In this document: one piece after another, positions 11,892-19,504 of the stretch
How the letters are laid out: each line of letters opens with the position of its first letter
How positions within the stretch are numbered: the first letter of the stretch is position 1
Assembly (NCBI GenBank): GCA_018993265.1
Contig: JAGKSW010000166.1
Coordinates: forward strand, 1-36,670
Direction: 5' to 3'
DNA: 36,670 nt
DNA from: Nostoc sp. TH1S01
Lineage (GTDB): Bacteria; Cyanobacteriota; Cyanobacteriia; Cyanobacteriales; Nostocaceae
Notes under the pieces: model-generated
What the model was told of the DNA's origin: nothing
What the model saw: the letters and a program-made list of their open reading frames with translations, nothing else
Databases searched by the model: none
Made by a program: the position numbers and the translations under genes

Positions 11892-13217
11892 ATGGTACAA
11901 ACTCCAGAAAAACCTGTTAATACTAAACTACCGCCTTCTCGTCATGAATTTGCCGAAGTAATTCATCGTTTAGAAGCTGGCGGTTCAATGTTACCGGATA
12001 CGCCAGAAAACTTAATGCAAATTATCGGTATTTATAAAGCTTACGCTGTACCGATGGATTTTTATTGGCGTGACCTATTATATATAGCTGAACAGGTCTT
12101 TTTAGAGCCATTTGCTTTTTCTAAATACTTCTTACCAAAAGAGTATTTAGAACTCCATAATCATTATGCTGGCGATACTGCTGATTTAAGAATTTGGCGC
12201 GGTGAAGCAACAGCCCATCCTGAACTTTTGGCATTTATGGAAAAGGGTGAAACCACTAAAATGCCAAAATTATTGCATCACTTACTTCACGATCGCATAA
12301 ATATGGAATTTGCTGAAGCTTGTATGCGGGCAATGCTTTGGCATCGGCATATGTATGCGCCAGTAAATCAATTTGATGCGTATCTCGACTCCGAAGAATA
12401 CAAAGCCAACGCCGACAGGGCAATTAAAGCCTACTTCCAAGGCAACCCCGTAATGCTGGGACTGTACAAACTGTTTCCTGATATGTTTTTGGAACAGTGC
12501 CGCCAGATGTCATACTACTCTAACCTCGGCTTGTTCTGGGAAGTCATGGCCCCGGTATTCTTTGAAATGTCCGACATCTACGACGAAGGCGGGTTTAAGG
12601 GTGTACCTGATGCCATGAACTTTTTGGTCAATGGCATATTTGCGATCGCAGGTCGTCCCATTTACCATCATGTTTATATCCGTGGGGAATGCTACGAAAT
12701 TATTCCCAAATCAAAAGGCTTCACCTGGCTATACGAAGCAGCATTACCTTATGTAGAAGCTGTGTTCTACCGCACCGCCCCATTTAGAGGCACAAAATCT
12801 TACAACGCCCAAGCAGGACAAGTGCCAGATGACCAAAAAGATTTCCACTACGGCATTCTCTACGCCGATGTGTTTCCTGTTGGTACTGCTGGTATTCCAC
12901 CAACATTATTAATGCAAGATATGTTGCACTTCTTGCCACAGTATCTTGTTGATTATTACAAACAACATTGCCGTGGTGAAGAAGATATGTTGATTCAGTT
13001 GGGTGTTAGTTTCCAACGGTCAATGTACAATGTTACTTCTGCGGTCATTCAAGCGTTGAGAACTGCACTTTTATATCCATTAGATGACCCTAATCCTAAA
13101 CATTTGCAAGCAAATCGTGAGTTTTTTGAGCAACAATTAAATCGCTTCACTCGTGCTGATTATGGTATGCGTGATGCAGCTCGTCTGCGGAGTATTCAAA
13201 ACCAAGATTATCGCTAA
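11892..13217 (+). CDS. cupB: CO2 hydration protein of NDH-1MS (ChpX/CupB or ChpY/CupA family)
   Basis: A 441-residue soluble-type protein of the cyanobacteria-specific CO2 hydration family that binds the distal end of NDH-1MS and converts CO2 to bicarbonate, with proposed zinc-dependent carbonic-anhydrase-like chemistry. Family-typical stretches are PDTPENLMQIIGIYKAYAVP, MDFYWRDLLYIAEQVFLEPF, LLHHLLHDRINMEFAEACMR and MLWHRHMYAPVNQFDAYLDS; His-rich segments such as HNHYAGD and LLHHLLHDR could contribute to the metal site. The start is ATG at 11892 with AGGAAA upstream. It closes the ndhF-ndhD operon. No fasciclin-domain cupS gene follows, which favours the constitutive CupB (ChpX) system over CupA; the protein itself could be either by eye. 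Confidence 0.88.
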   Translation: MVQTPEKPVNTKLPPSRHEFAEVIHRLEAGGSMLPDTPENLMQIIGIYKAYAVPMDFYWRDLLYIAEQVFLEPFAFSKYFLPKEYLELHNHYAGDTADLRIWRGEATAHPELLAFMEKGETTKMPKLLHHLLHDRINMEFAEACMRAMLWHRHMYAPVNQFDAYLDSEEYKANADRAIKAYFQGNPVMLGLYKLFPDMFLEQCRQMSYYSNLGLFWEVMAPVFFEMSDIYDEGGFKGVPDAMNFLVNGIFAIAGRPIYHHVYIRGECYEIIPKSKGFTWLYEAALPYVEAVFYRTAPFRGTKSYNAQAGQVPDDQKDFHYGILYADVFPVGTAGIPPTLLMQDMLHFLPQYLVDYYKQHCRGEEDMLIQLGVSFQRSMYNVTSAVIQALRTALLYPLDDPNPKHLQANREFFEQQLNRFTRADYGMRDAARLRSIQNQDYR

Positions 13218-13585
13218 TTAAACAGCGCAAAGCTTTACCCGGATTTCTGATCACATTTCTCATAATCTGAACAGGGTTGGAGAATTCTGGTGAAAAATCC
13301 GGGGTTAAACATACTATATACATAAGTTCTGTTGTTATTTAAGCTATTTCTCCACCCTGTCAAATATAGCCATATCGCTTCATACCTTGATATGGAATGA
13401 ATCACCTAACAAAACCATCAACCTTGGTTAGAAAGTCTCAAACTTTAAGTAAAACTACTGAGAGACAAAGAAAATTGTCAATCATTCAGTAGCTTGGCAG
13501 AGTATGCAGTATCTTATATTCTCTTAGATGTTAAACTACAACTGAGTTTTACGAGAATAGGTTGAGAAGCAAGGAAGGTTGACAG
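13218..13585. other. 368-bp spacer after the CO2-uptake operon
   Basis: There is no gene. A long imperfect inverted repeat, CCCGGATTT (13238-13246) against AAATCCGGG (13295-13303), lies just after cupB. The rest is AT-rich sequence that should contain the promoter of the methyltransferase-nuclease gene; the ribosome-binding site AAGGAAGG is at 13571-13578. Confidence 0.5.
13238..13303. repeat. Inverted repeat downstream of cupB
   Basis: Arms CCCGGATTT and AAATCCGGG are perfect over 9 bp and extend imperfectly into TTTA on the left and TTAAA on the right, with 48 bp between them. There is no T-run, so it is not a standard terminator. It looks like a small palindromic dispersed repeat of about 75 bp and could still stop or stabilise the operon transcript. 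Confidence 0.4.
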
Positions 13586-15733
13586 TTGCAGGAGTTTGAC
13601 AAACCCATTCCACAAAACAAGCTTGACATCGTTGAGAAAACTAGGTCTAACTTATTTGCTTGGCGTGGTCAATTTTCGCCACAACTTATTGAAGTTATAC
13701 TAAGCTCTTACTGTTTACCTAACTCAGTCATTCTTGACCCTTTTGCAGGTAGTGGTACTGTCTTACTTGAGGCTGGTATCCTTGCGTTTGAGGCACATGG
13801 TTTTGAAATTAACCCAGCAGCCTGGATTCTTAGTAAAACTTATGAACTTATAAATGCTCCTCAAAGAAAAGAAGTTCTTACAGATGTTAAAAATTTGATA
13901 GACAGGGAATTCCCCTTTAGAATTTTTGAAAGTGGTAGACAAGTAACAGATTTACCAGAAAAATTAAGCAAAATTAGACATGACTTGGATGAACCAGCAA
14001 AAAAAATATTTGATGCTTTAATAATTCTTCTTGATGTTGCAAATCATAAGGTAACTAATGAATTTATACAATCTAAGTTTGCTGATTTGGTAAGTGTTAT
14101 TGAAAAGTTTCCTTTCTCTGAAAAGCAAATTAGACTAAATCTAGCTGATGCTCGTTCTCTGCCGTTAGAAAACGATCAGATAGATTTTGTTTTAACTTCG
14201 CCACCTTATATTAATGTATTCAATTATCATCAAAACTATCGTAAATCTGCTGAAATATTGGGATGGGATTTATTAAAAATAGCAAAGTCGGAAATTGGTT
14301 CTAATAGAGCAAACCGAGGAAATCGGTTTTATACAGTAGTACAGTATTGCCTAGATATGGGTGATACTTTGCTAGAACTTTCAAGAGTAACTAAAAATGA
14401 AGGTCGAATTGTATTTGTTGTAGGACATGAATCTAATGTCTTGGGAGTACCTTTCTATAATGCTGACATTATTGAAAAAATTGGAGTACGAGCAAATCTA
14501 TTTCATAAAAGTTTGAGACAAAAGCGAGAATTTAAAAACAAGTTTGGCAAAATAATAAGAGAGGATTTAATTAATTTTATTAACCTAAACAATGCGTGCC
14601 ATAAAGAAGCGGTTGAGCAAGTTGCAAGAGAGGTAGCATTTGATGTGCTAAGAAGTGGCCTTTCTTTAGTAACCTCGAAAAACTTTAACTTTTTAGAAGA
14701 TGCAATTGAAAAAGTTCAAGATATTGGAAGAACACCAATTTTAGACAAAAGAGTTCATGTCTATCAACTTCCTCAAAGCGTTCAAATAGCTAGTCCTAAG
14801 TATTCACAGTTATTTCAGCCTATGCCTGAATTTTCTCGCCCTCATTATACGAAGCTAACTGCATGTCTGAATAATCGTCGATTACCCCAAGCTGATAAAG
14901 AGCGACTAGAAGAAGCCGTTAGAAAGTATCATGAATGGATTGCTGATTTAGAAGCAATTGAACGTGGTCAAGCAGATACAGTAGAAAAATTAGTCGAAGC
15001 TACTAACCGATATAAACGTTTTATTGAGCTTGACTTGATATTTGATAGCTCAGATAACTTCTTGTACAGACAGAAAGGGCAGTTAAAACTAGACAATACC
15101 ATCTTAGAGGAATTTTTGCCACATGTCGTGTTTCGCAGTTTACGCGGCATAGATGGCTCTTTCGAGTTAGGGCCGAGAAAGACGTTCTCTGGGTTGAGCT
15201 TCTTATCTTCTCTTGGAAATCCCGGTCAAGGTGGTGAACCAACTATTAGGACTAAAGATCAAGATTTTATACTTGGCAAGAAATTATATTTAAAGTCATC
15301 TTTTGATCTAGGGTTTCAAGACTATAAGTTAATTGAGTCACATCTTGGATACGTTTGTGCAGAATGCAAAACTAATCTAGATAAGACTATGTTTCAGGAA
15401 GCAGTAGCAACAAGTAGAGATTTAAAAATAGCTGTTCCTGGATCTTTATATTTTCTAATCTGTGAATTTCTTGATATGACACCAGTTTCAACAGTTTCAA
15501 CTCAAATTGATGATGTTTTGATTGTGCGAAAAACAAAGCGTATGTCCGCTAATATTCGACAAGAGTATAGAACTCCACAGGAAAGGCAACTGCATAGGCA
15601 GGATTATGTTGATTTTTTAGATTCTTCTAAATATTATTCTGATGTATTTCAAAGAATGATTGATAAGATACAAGCCTTGATTGATGACACTAATCCATCA
15701 ATAGAGAATGTTTTAGAGCAAGGATATTTCTAA
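13586..15733 (+). CDS. Fused DNA amino-methyltransferase and PD-(D/E)XK restriction endonuclease
   Basis: A 715-residue protein with two parts. Residues about 1-390 form an S-adenosylmethionine DNA methyltransferase: motif I DPFAGSGTVLLEA (51-63), an acidic motif II FEINP (73-77) and catalytic motif IV TSPPY (204-208). The order I then IV and the SPPY form suggest an N4-cytosine or N6-adenine amino-methyltransferase, N4C being more usual with SPPY. Residues about 410-700 carry a nuclease core with AECKTNLDKTMFQEA (592-606), where E593 and K595 fit the E-x-K of PD-(D/E)XK; an upstream acidic residue near D558/D560 could complete it. From memory this half resembles Bpu10I-family type II enzymes. 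The start is TTG at 13586, well placed after AAGGAAGG. No separate methyltransferase, nuclease or specificity gene is adjacent. A type IIG-like single-chain restriction-modification enzyme is the best reading. Confidence 0.78.
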   Translation: MQEFDKPIPQNKLDIVEKTRSNLFAWRGQFSPQLIEVILSSYCLPNSVILDPFAGSGTVLLEAGILAFEAHGFEINPAAWILSKTYELINAPQRKEVLTDVKNLIDREFPFRIFESGRQVTDLPEKLSKIRHDLDEPAKKIFDALIILLDVANHKVTNEFIQSKFADLVSVIEKFPFSEKQIRLNLADARSLPLENDQIDFVLTSPPYINVFNYHQNYRKSAEILGWDLLKIAKSEIGSNRANRGNRFYTVVQYCLDMGDTLLELSRVTKNEGRIVFVVGHESNVLGVPFYNADIIEKIGVRANLFHKSLRQKREFKNKFGKIIREDLINFINLNNACHKEAVEQVAREVAFDVLRSGLSLVTSKNFNFLEDAIEKVQDIGRTPILDKRVHVYQLPQSVQIASPKYSQLFQPMPEFSRPHYTKLTACLNNRRLPQADKERLEEAVRKYHEWIADLEAIERGQADTVEKLVEATNRYKRFIELDLIFDSSDNFLYRQKGQLKLDNTILEEFLPHVVFRSLRGIDGSFELGPRKTFSGLSFLSSLGNPGQGGEPTIRTKDQDFILGKKLYLKSSFDLGFQDYKLIESHLGYVCAECKTNLDKTMFQEAVATSRDLKIAVPGSLYFLICEFLDMTPVSTVSTQIDDVLIVRKTKRMSANIRQEYRTPQERQLHRQDYVDFLDSSKYYSDVFQRMIDKIQALIDDTNPSIENVLEQGYF

Positions 15734-15782
15734 GTATTTCCTATTTAATTACAAACTTTAAGCGAGAATTTTCTGAGTTTTT

Positions 15783-15895
15783 GAATCAAAACGCTGCCCT
15801 GTTGATATTGATACACATGATAATGTTGATGAAATAATTAATTTTTTGACATTGCTGAATATGGTCATCAAATTTTATTTTATGTACTCAATTAA
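15783..15895 (+). pseudogene. Possible remnant of a small protein, frameshifted at a T6 run
   Basis: Reading from 15783 gives a plausible hydrophilic peptide with the segment VDIDTHDNVDEIINF; at the T6 run 15842-15847 the frame breaks, and adding one T would continue it as FDIAEYGHQILFYVLN and stop at 15895. The composition looks protein-like on both sides of the break, but there is no start and I do not recognise a family. It may be chance. Confidence 0.25.
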
Positions 15896-16107
15896 GAAAC
15901 TTTTTATCTTATCTGTGTCTCTGCATGAAACAATTCCTACCCCATTTATACAACGCCAAGTTTCTTATCGCTGAATTTAGACTAATTTACCTCTCTTTTT
16001 CAGGGATAGTTTTTATGTAACTAAGTTTGAAAAGTTATAGAAATTTATATGATTTTTACGCCTTTTGAGTCATCATCGCCTAATTTGATTGTGGGATTTT
16101 TTATATC

Positions 16108-16131
16108 ACGCAAAAGCGCAGAGACGCAAAG
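16108..16131. repeat. CGCAAAGACGC-type dispersed repeat
   Basis: Sequence CACGCAAAAGCGCAGAGACG followed by CAAAG is one of the common Nostocales spacer repeats. Related words occur at about 22999-23013 (CTGCGCCTCTGCGTG) and in the hemE terminator (TTTGTGTCTTTGTGG). Confidence 0.5.
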
Positions 16132-16154
16132 AAGAGTGAAAGAGTAGAAATATT

Positions 16155-17573
16155 ATGAATCCTAGTAGAAATTATCTTTTTTACGCTTTAACAAATAGCA
16201 TTTGCTCAAAATGTCTTGTAAAAGTTGAAGCCAAAATTATTTTTCAAGATGGTTGTGTTTACATGATTAAACACTGTCCAACGCATGGACAAGAAAAAGT
16301 TTTGATCGCAGATGATATTGAATATTACAAAAAATCACTGGAATTTATTAAACCAGGGGATATGCCTTTAAAGTTTAATACGCCAATTAAACATGGCTGT
16401 CCTTATGATTGTGGTTTGTGTCCTGACCATGAACAGCATAGTTGTTTAACTTTGGTAGAAGTAACAGATAGATGTAATCTTTCCTGCCCGATTTGTTATG
16501 CTGATTCTGGTGCAGCTGAAGTTTCGGAAATATCACAGCAACCGCGTCGCCATCGCAGTTTAGCACATATTGAAAAAATGATTGATGCGGTGGTAGAAAA
16601 TGAAGGTGAACCGCAGATAGTACAACTGAGTGGCGGTGAACCAACTATTCATCCAGAGTTTTTTGAAATATTAGATATTGCTAAAAGTAAGCCGATTAAG
16701 CATTTAATGATTAATACCAATGGTGTGAGGATTGCCAAGGATAAATCATTTTGCGATCGCCTCAGCCAATATATGCCAGGAATTGAATTATATCTGCAAT
16801 TTGATAGTTTTGGAAAGTCAGCTTTACAAGAATTACGCGGTGCAGATTTAAGGGAAGTTCGAGAGAAAGCAATTGAACATCTCAATGAATATAATATCTC
16901 TACAACATTGGTTGTCACCCTGAAAAAAGGACTCAATGATCATGAAATTGGGAAAATTATCGATTATGCTTTACAACAAAAATGTATTCGTGGCGTAACT
17001 TTTCAACCGATACAAGTAGCTGGTAGATTAGAAGGATTTGACGCAAAGCAAGATAGATATACTTTAACCGAGATTCGTCGCTCAATTCTGGAACAAAGTT
17101 CTCATTTTAAACCAGAAGATATTCTACCTGTTCCCTGTCATCCAGATTGTTTAGCGATGGCTTATGCTTTGAAACTTAATGGTAAAGTTATACCTCTGAC
17201 TAGCTTAATAAATCCTGATATTTTTGTGGATATTGTGCCGAACAGCGTATTATATGAACAAAATGAAGAACTAAAAAAGCACATATTTCAGCTATTTTCT
17301 ACAAGTCACTCACCTAATTCTGCGGCTGTATCCTTGAAGCAACTTTTGTGTTGTTTACCAATGTTACCCGTTCCCGAAAACATTAACTACAGCAATGTAT
17401 TTCGAGTCATGATTGTACAGTTTCTCGATCCCTTCAATTTTGATGTGCGTTCAGTGAAGCGTTCCTGCATCCATATTGTTCACCCAGATGGCAGGATTAT
17501 TCCGTTTGATACTTTTAATATTTTTTACCGCGAAGGTAGTGATGGTTATTCATTGGTAAGTAGTAAACATTAG
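16155..17573 (+). CDS. Radical SAM protein of the tetraether lipid synthase (Tes/MJ0619) family
   Basis: A 472-residue iron-sulfur enzyme. The radical SAM cluster motif is CNLSCPICY (C107, C111, C114), followed by the SAM-binding LSGGEPTIHPEF (about 158-169). Extra cysteines sit before it: C17/C20 with C34 and C41 (a possible mononuclear rubredoxin-like iron site) and C82-x3-C86-x2-C89 plus C97 for an auxiliary cluster. The C-terminal segment SVKRSCIHIVHPDGRIIPF is typical of the COG1964 family that includes MJ0619 and archaeal Tes, which joins two lipid tails carbon to carbon. What it does in a cyanobacterium is unknown; lipid tail cross-linking or modification is inference. ATG at 16155 is close to a weak purine-rich site (GAAAGAG). 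A small membrane protein gene follows after 9 bp, likely in the same operon. Confidence 0.82.
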   Translation: MNPSRNYLFYALTNSICSKCLVKVEAKIIFQDGCVYMIKHCPTHGQEKVLIADDIEYYKKSLEFIKPGDMPLKFNTPIKHGCPYDCGLCPDHEQHSCLTLVEVTDRCNLSCPICYADSGAAEVSEISQQPRRHRSLAHIEKMIDAVVENEGEPQIVQLSGGEPTIHPEFFEILDIAKSKPIKHLMINTNGVRIAKDKSFCDRLSQYMPGIELYLQFDSFGKSALQELRGADLREVREKAIEHLNEYNISTTLVVTLKKGLNDHEIGKIIDYALQQKCIRGVTFQPIQVAGRLEGFDAKQDRYTLTEIRRSILEQSSHFKPEDILPVPCHPDCLAMAYALKLNGKVIPLTSLINPDIFVDIVPNSVLYEQNEELKKHIFQLFSTSHSPNSAAVSLKQLLCCLPMLPVPENINYSNVFRVMIVQFLDPFNFDVRSVKRSCIHIVHPDGRIIPFDTFNIFYREGSDGYSLVSSKH

Positions 17574-18799: not shown

Positions 18800-19504
18800 T
18801 TATAAATTATTTGGGTCGATGCCTTTTTGTTGTAATTTAGCTAGGAGTTCTTGAAGCTGATTCTGAGCTTCTTCTAACTGCTTCTGTCGTGCATTGGCTA
18901 ACTCTTCTGGGGTAGAATATCGCCTACCATTTTCGTCGTACCAATACAACCATTCCCGCGTCATACCTTGATAACTTCCGCCTTCTTTGCCAATACCTAA
19001 GCCAACTTCTGGCATCCAAATTTTATCACCAGATTGTAAGATGTATTCTCCATCAACTAGGCGATACACTTCTAGACGTTGGCGTTTACGGCGTAAGCGT
19101 GTTGGTGCGTAAATAACATAATATAATACTCCCAACTGAGCATAATCTAATTTCTTTTGTTCATACTCATAATTGTATGCTTGGGAGACAATTTCTAACG
19201 TAAAAATTGGCGGTATACCATCTTCTTCCCACATCACATAACTAGAACGTCCATTTTCGCCAATAAAACGTTCTACGCCTAAACTTAAAAATCCATCAGG
19301 GACGATCGCAGGTGTACTCGCTGCATAATAAATCCCCATATTAATACCAAAAAACCAGTCTTCTCGACTTTGCCAAATACTGGTTAAAATTGATAATAAT
19401 AAGCTAGGAATTAATATTTGTAATTCATTATCCACGGGTGTATCGTCAGAATCTGGTAATTCGGCTGATGAAGGTAAACATGATAACGGATTGTAGTGAA
19501 ACAT
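18800..19504 (-). CDS. Uma2 family protein (DUF820, PD-(D/E)XK nuclease fold)
   Basis: A 234-residue member of the Uma2/DUF820 family, which is greatly expanded in cyanobacteria. The nuclease-like core is visible as [16 protein letters not shown] and [33 protein letters not shown], giving the D, E-x-V and K positions. The C-terminal 35 residues form a Gln/Leu-rich coiled coil ([20 protein letters not shown]), common in cyanobacterial members. Actual nuclease activity has not been shown for most members. It is probably co-transcribed with the aspartoacylase gene (5-bp spacing). It is only distantly similar to the second Uma2 protein at 24866. Confidence 0.9.

Follow-up and report, generated by a model that had tools for sequence, protein, structure and literature searches.

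Type II restriction–modification systems are bacterial defences against viruses that pair a methyltransferase (M), which marks DNA, with a nuclease (R), which cuts it, and in the relatives of the gene described here the two are usually encoded by two neighbouring genes. The closest described nucleases are BbvCI (6eg7, 6maf; CCTCAGC) and Bpu10I (CCTNAGC), both of which have two subunits and asymmetric sites. According to the available text of PMC6326814, it has been proposed that the outer C:G pair of the CCTN half-site is read in BbvCI subunit R1 by D204 and R227, and the outer pair of the GCTN half-site in subunit R2 by K214 and N236; the centre base is read by the residue at position four of the loop that follows the ExK motif, where a methionine allows any base. 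The centre-base residue was tested by mutation, and the outer-base pairs were called tentative by the authors (PMC6326814). The same source describes symmetric kin of BbvCI, such as Bsu36I (CCTNAGG) and BlpI (GCTNAGC). It has also been reported, in the accessible part of PMC3039593, that the engineered Type IIP fusion RM.Eco29kI works, with weaker restriction of phage, and that natural fusions of such a kind could exist. REase–MTase fusions, natural and synthetic, are mentioned as a class in the available part of PMC3850674.

In the window, the whole stretch of 36,670 nucleotides from Nostoc sp. TH1S01 that was analysed, M and R are found in a single gene at 13586–15733 on the forward strand. 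The frame (715 aa plus stop) begins with TTG, has no internal stop codon as read from the sequence, and is preceded, 7 nt upstream of the TTG, by the ribosome-binding-like stretch AAGGAAGG (13571–13578, +). The first-pass annotation had described this frame as a methyltransferase joined to a Bpu10I-family PD-(D/E)XK nuclease with DPFAGSGT, TSPPY and E-x-K motifs, and had expected N6_N4_Mtase and RE_Bpu10I profiles in its two halves. Both profiles were recovered, PF01555 at residues 17–78 (E 8.6e-13) and PF09549 at residues 499–715 (E 4.9e-105), and the motifs DPFAGSGT, TSPPY, AECK and DKTM start at residues 51, 204, 592 and 599, respectively. On sequence comparison, the fused frame is neither a chance product nor an assembly error, because fused relatives occur in other cyanobacterial loci and in loci of other phyla. 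The AF2 model, built from an alignment of 86 sequences of the window and the loci (mean pLDDT 90.8, pTM 0.59), consists of two well-folded domains joined by a floppy linker (residues 396–412; 14771–14821, +), in which residues 396–410 have pLDDT below 50.

The N-terminal domain (residues 1–395; 13586–14770, +) has free-standing homologues of similar length, its 10-residue blocks mostly score above 90 in the AF2 model, and PADLOC called it a Type II MTase with a best E of 9.5e-20. DPFAGSGT (residues 51–58; 13736–13759, +), read in the locus alignment, is presumably the SAM-binding motif I, and TSPPY (residues 204–208; 14195–14209, +) is the catalytic motif IV, with S-P-P-Y conserved in all 60 of the non-redundant complete loci compared below. 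The SPPY form of motif IV is that of the N4-cytosine methyltransferases. The domain is by sequence a DNA amino-methyltransferase, and by its SPPY motif probably one of the N4-cytosine type.

The C-terminal domain (residues 413–715 plus stop; 14822–15733, +) matches the RE_Bpu10I profile over all of its 218 positions (1–218), with 350.4 bits against a gathering cut-off of 25. In a PDB sequence search with this half, only BbvCI subunits were found at E ≤ 0.01 (R2, 7.2e-17; R1, 4.7e-8). Similarly, BbvCI chains occupied ranks 1–7 of the Foldseek search against the PDB (E 2.5e-12 to 5.2e-8; TM-score by target 0.69–0.78), followed by Trm11-type tRNA and other SAM methyltransferases; sequence identity to the BbvCI chains over the fold is 17–27%. 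The D-ExK site is intact: D560 (15263–15265, +) lies in strand 552–572 and E593-C-K595 (15362–15370, +) in strand 580–598 of the AF2 model, with helix 600–616 next, and these residues align with D146 and E177-C-K179 of BbvCI R2. D560, E593 and K595 are conserved in 60/60 loci. The C-terminal 303 residues are thus predicted, from sequence and model, to form a complete Bpu10I/BbvCI-fold PD-(D/E)XK nuclease, and the earlier expectation of a nuclease family held good, with D and E-x-K on adjacent strands of the model.

The recognition residues of this domain point to a particular target. The predicted inner-base recognition loop D599-K600-T601-M602 (15380–15391, +) carries, by alignment, the methionine that would leave the centre base unread, following the available text of PMC6326814. 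The predicted readers of the outer C:G pair, D630 (15473–15475, +) and R652 (15539–15541, +), are equivalent to D204 and R227 of BbvCI R1, the pair proposed for the CCTN half, and D630, R652 and M602 are each present in 60/60 non-redundant loci. Since these three residues match the R1 code plus methionine, a CCTN half-site is predicted and, by analogy, the palindrome CCTNAGG for a homodimer. A symmetric DNA site is therefore the probable target of the fused enzyme, and the missing partner would then be unnecessary. A second RE_Bpu10I subfamily (L110–L118, 290–337 aa) has the K/N pair of BbvCI R2 together with the methionine in 9/9 sampled cyanobacterial genes; from these residues it would be predicted to read GCTNAGC, the BlpI target given in PMC6326814 as available.

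Taken together, we favour, at a probability of roughly 0.7, a horizontally acquired Type II M–R cassette whose tandem genes have fused and which acts as a homodimeric nuclease and a methyltransferase on the palindrome CCTNAGG. An ordinary cassette would have lost the stop codon that separated its two genes; the N-terminal 395 residues would methylate, and a flexible linker, about 17 residues long, would lead to the C-terminal 303-residue nuclease. The nuclease domain would dimerise through its own fold, two copies reading CCTNAGG and cleaving inside the site, and the methyltransferase would mark a cytosine on both strands. With both strands of the palindrome marked, one methyltransferase and one nuclease would be enough. 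A symmetric site would in this way dissolve the apparent paradox of one methylase on an asymmetric site.

The surroundings of the gene are consistent with acquisition. Its neighbours are the CO2-hydration protein ChpXY (11892–13217) and, by Pfam, a subunit of the proton-translocating NADH:quinone oxidoreductase type; these neighbours and the nearest named kin of the gene both point to a cyanobacterial source. In the congener G357, blocks matching 11892–13221 (ChpXY) and 15975–17571 (a radical-SAM gene and its upstream region) are on a single contig with 15 bp between them; in the window, the same blocks are separated by 2,753 bp (13222–15974) that include the M–R gene. Among the matches listed for ten genus-mates, none falls inside the M–R gene. 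Because the flanking blocks of G357 nearly adjoin without it, the gene appears to have been inserted in the host lineage, which fits a mobile restriction system. The radical-SAM protein (16155–17573) resembles TrsS and the tetraether synthase Tes, with scores of 319 and 289 bits that fall short of the respective NCBIfam cut-offs (490 and 450), and has close homologues (83–91% identical) in 7 of the 39 other genomes sampled from the family, one of these 7 being a fragment. A Uma2-family protein (PF05685, a putative endonuclease) is encoded near the M–R gene at 18800–19504 on the reverse strand.

Site avoidance gives evidence both ways. In a 436,670 bp sample of the host genome (G000), CCTNAGG was depleted more strongly than any other of 64 interrupted 7-bp palindromes (4 observed vs 37.1 expected), followed by GGTNACC (6 vs 48) and GCTNAGC (12 vs 66; rank 3); in the window it was observed 0 times, compared with a mean of 5.1 in shuffles. 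It ranked first in the carrier G281 and second in the carrier G060. Depletion of the asymmetric CCTNAGC was found in none of these three sampled carriers (143 observed vs 99 expected in G000), and depletion of ACTNAGT and TCTNAGA was likewise sought in the G000 sample without result. GGTNACC is depleted about 7–9-fold in the same three genomes and is low in many non-carriers too. Across whole genomes of the order, the CCTNAGG/GGANTCC ratio was lower in the 28 intact carriers (median 0.046) than in the 39 non-carriers (median 0.343; p 3e-5), while for the control GGTNACC/CCANTGG carriers (25) and non-carriers (39) were alike (p 0.36); the avoidance p-values are too small because the genomes are related. 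These counts cover 78 genomes; three whose R is broken and eight whose sole match was a weaker one from the second subfamily were omitted from the tests. Within taxonomic families, carriers had lower ratios than the single sampled non-carrier in f2, f8, f12, f14, f15 and f20, but not in f5 and f9, and in f1, to which the host belongs, the five carriers all fall inside the range of the 14 non-carriers. In 32 carrier genomes, mostly from other phyla and with no matched control, the ratio ran from 0.006 to 1.33. CCTNAGG is hardly avoided in the intact close carriers G020 (fused, 0.45) and G167 (0.51). The G020 locus (L080) has EPFAGSGT as motif I, with E replacing D at residue 51.

The same counts bear on a fused Type II enzyme with another palindromic target, be it GCTNAGC, SCTNAGS or one that lies outside the CTNAG group, a reading that we regard as unlikely but worth keeping in view. 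Besides its third rank in G000, GCTNAGC is also lower in carriers relative to CGANTCG (p 0.012 with all 39 non-carriers as the reference); when only the 25 non-carriers outside f1 are taken, its p of 5.7e-5 is about as strong as the 4.0e-5 of CCTNAGG; several carriers also hold second-subfamily RE_Bpu10I genes, which may contribute to this avoidance. In addition, the CCTNAGG avoidance of G000 is common to congeners without the gene: 6/10 gene-free genus-mates (G353, G344, G354, G357, G359 and G361) deplete the site as strongly (0.044–0.098), the remaining four having ratios of 0.33–0.74, so that the depletion in G000 need not stem from the fused gene and other systems may be responsible. The PF09549 search of the ten genus-mates gave nothing in nine and a weak match in G361 (2e-14, 338 aa), which by score and length appears to belong to the second subfamily; no close M relative was found in the ten, the best match being 1e-7 over 71 residues. 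The six avoiding genus-mates perhaps hold another CCTNAGG system. Avoidance in the host's own genome was dropped as proof of the target on this control. What argues for CCTNAGG over another palindrome is that the carriers G281, G255, G032 and G074 avoid CCTNAGG (0.012–0.045) but not GCTNAGC (0.88–1.06), and that among genomes without GCTNAGC avoidance the CCTNAGG median is 0.055 in 9 carriers vs 0.49 in 22 non-carriers (p 0.004). Also counting against another palindrome, ACTNAGT and TCTNAGA are not depleted in G000, and the K/N residues of the GCTN type belong to a different subfamily.

The relatives of the gene show how the two halves are arranged elsewhere. The contig scan yielded 236 relatives; the best 80 of them gave 76 loci, distributed over Cyanobacteriota and more than ten further phyla or candidate phyla. 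Another 30 loci were retained from a search of the host's order, in which 61 of 291 genomes had PF09549. From these 106 loci, 28 with M or R missing, cut or interrupted and 18 near-duplicates were removed, leaving 60. M and R are separate in 46/60 and form a single frame in 14/60, and in the order search a frame of at least 715 aa occurs in 5 of 28 complete, unbroken matches. The fused arrangement, thought unusual in the first-pass annotation, is accordingly a minority state and not a unique one. In 45 of the 46 split loci, the genes stand in tandem with M first, and either a short gap separates them or they overlap slightly; in L106 R precedes M. The fused relatives of the non-redundant set comprise five other cyanobacterial loci (62–87% identity) and eight loci in other phyla (39–57%). 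The fused/split label changes 11 times on the R tree (at least 6 forced by starred branches) and 9 times on the M tree (at least 7 forced), both being quick trees with many weak forks; given these 9–11 changes, fusion appears to have been gained or lost many times, the window gene being one instance. In the plasmid search, 8 records matched, all within residues 1–329 (10–42% of the query), and the phage search with the 715-aa query gave no match. Three loci are on viral contigs, L107 with a complete split M–R pair and two others with M only; L107, from an IMG/VR contig classed as viral, has identities of 40% (M) and 45% (R).

Among these kin, R is interrupted or shortened in 14 of the 28 dropped loci (e.g., L005, L022, L024, L047, L056, L058 and L090), and five loci (L019, L023, L025, L026 and L029) have M and no R frame, likely through nuclease loss leaving orphan methylases. 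Such decay would make it conceivable that fusion has inactivated the nuclease of the window gene and left a modification-only gene, which would be compatible with a CCTNAGG target. This is improbable, as the window nuclease keeps its catalytic and near-invariant family residues, is 86–93% identical to the fused cyanobacterial kin L002, L003, L078 and L080, and is better conserved than M (92% vs 82% to L002).

A functional cassette might also release its nuclease separately. Split cyanobacterial nuclease genes often begin at a methionine just ahead of SRPHY (MPEFSRPHY or MPELSRPHY), and the in-frame ATG of M413 (14822–14824, +) stands at this start position. A start methionine no more than 12 codons upstream of the conserved PH is retained in 11/14 fused loci (chance about 0.17 per protein, p 9e-7, a value too small because the loci are related). 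A Shine–Dalgarno-like stretch at the internal start is present in 4/14 fused loci, none of them among the 6 cyanobacterial ones, and none was found upstream of M413 in the window gene. Since the nuclease start codon is kept in frame, M413 may yield some free nuclease.

Meanwhile, in the split M-then-R loci (L106 omitted), R lies in the frame of M in 23/45 (p 0.01 vs one third), and a TAG stop separates M and R in 8/23 in-frame pairs (L006, L007, L013, L014, L031, L037, L043 and L059) vs 0/22 out-of-frame pairs (Fisher p 0.004, post hoc). Stop-codon readthrough in split loci is kept as a lead only, because most in-frame R genes have their own start just past the stop and the loci share ancestry. 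A more speculative reading, possible but doubtful, is that fusion is selected and repeatedly switched, giving full-length M–R plus free nuclease, with the stop codon as a dial on the methylase:nuclease ratio, and that the D/R and K/N code with methionine predicts CCTNAGG and GCTNAGC across the Bpu10I family.

The first-pass annotation had also considered a type IIG-like enzyme. Such a type IIG/IIC-like protein would use one shared recognition region for both activities, be stimulated by SAM and cut away from an asymmetric site. Both domains do lie in one chain with the motifs of both intact, and the presence of the two activities in one protein is the definition of Type IIC in the available text of PMC4081073, where BtgZI gives a precedent for an N-terminal MTase and a C-terminal nuclease. 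A shared recognition region is nevertheless quite improbable, because the halves are free-standing genes in 46/60 loci and the linker is disordered in the AF2 model; the nuclease also matches whole BbvCI subunits, own recognition residues included. Least probable is that the protein is half of a Bpu10I/BbvCI-type heterodimer that would depend on a partner subunit encoded at a distance and on a further methyltransferase, which the Pfam family name and the low-level identity to BbvCI chains would allow: unlike a Type IIT enzyme, the chain has one nuclease domain and the 7.65 Mb host genome (247 contigs) a single PF09549 match, the 60 complete loci each have one M and one R (at locus level, several genomes of the order search showing a weaker second-subfamily match), the D/R and methionine residues suit symmetric CCTN/CCTN, and CCTNAGC is not depleted in the three sampled carriers. 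The absence of a partner gene, noted earlier for the neighbourhood, thus extends to the genome for the RE_Bpu10I family; the premise of an asymmetric site and the distant partner drawn from it were rejected on the same residues and counts, and on the existence of symmetric kin (PMC6326814, available text).

The fused Type II cassette shares with BbvCI the nuclease fold, the D...E-C-K site (as in R2) and the outer-base residues of R1, and with Bpu10I the Pfam family name; whereas these two enzymes combine two subunits, here one nuclease is fused to a methyltransferase and a symmetric site is predicted. Bsu36I (CC|TNAGG), described in the available text of PMC6326814 as BbvCI-related and symmetric with methionine at the centre-base position, has the very target predicted here, and the likeness is drawn from this published description, not from sequence. 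The CCTNAGG prediction is cheap to test, and the gene possibly encodes a natural Bsu36I isoschizomer that brings its own methylase. In pandoravirus, genomic N4-methylcytosine has been reported, with one methyltransferase assigned to CCTNAGG and no associated nuclease in the part of PMC7253447 available, a comparison made by description only. RM.Eco29kI is likewise a Type IIP nuclease fused to its methyltransferase, but it is engineered, with R before M, a GIY-YIG nuclease and m5C modification (PMC3039593, accessible part), whereas the present gene is natural, with M before R, a PD-(D/E)XK nuclease and an SPPY-type M. BtgZI and other Type IIC/IIG enzymes also hold both activities in one chain, BtgZI with the MTase first and the nuclease last; they cut remotely and mostly have one shared recognition region (PMC4081073, available text), unlike the whole site-specific nuclease with free-standing homologues found here. 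The C-REase fusions of PvuII-like systems, as far as PMC3850674 is available, are a further natural in-frame joining of R–M neighbours, also cyanobacterial and probably arisen more than once, but they join a regulator to a nuclease instead of a methyltransferase to a nuclease. In the part of the open-licence PMC literature that was covered, no account of a natural M–R fusion in the RE_Bpu10I family was found, and no claim is made that such a fusion is unreported. Closely related fused and split forms provide a natural counterpart to what RM.Eco29kI was built to imitate, and with this set it can be tested directly how fusion alters the timing of protection and cutting and the ratio between them. 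The gene joins an ordinary Type II M–R pair in a natural fusion, and the principle of fusion was already known, because RM.Eco29kI, BtgZI/Type IIC and the REase–MTase fusion class have been described; the present analysis adds a naturally occurring, recurrent series of fused and split forms in one PD-(D/E)XK Type II family, together with a prediction of its target.
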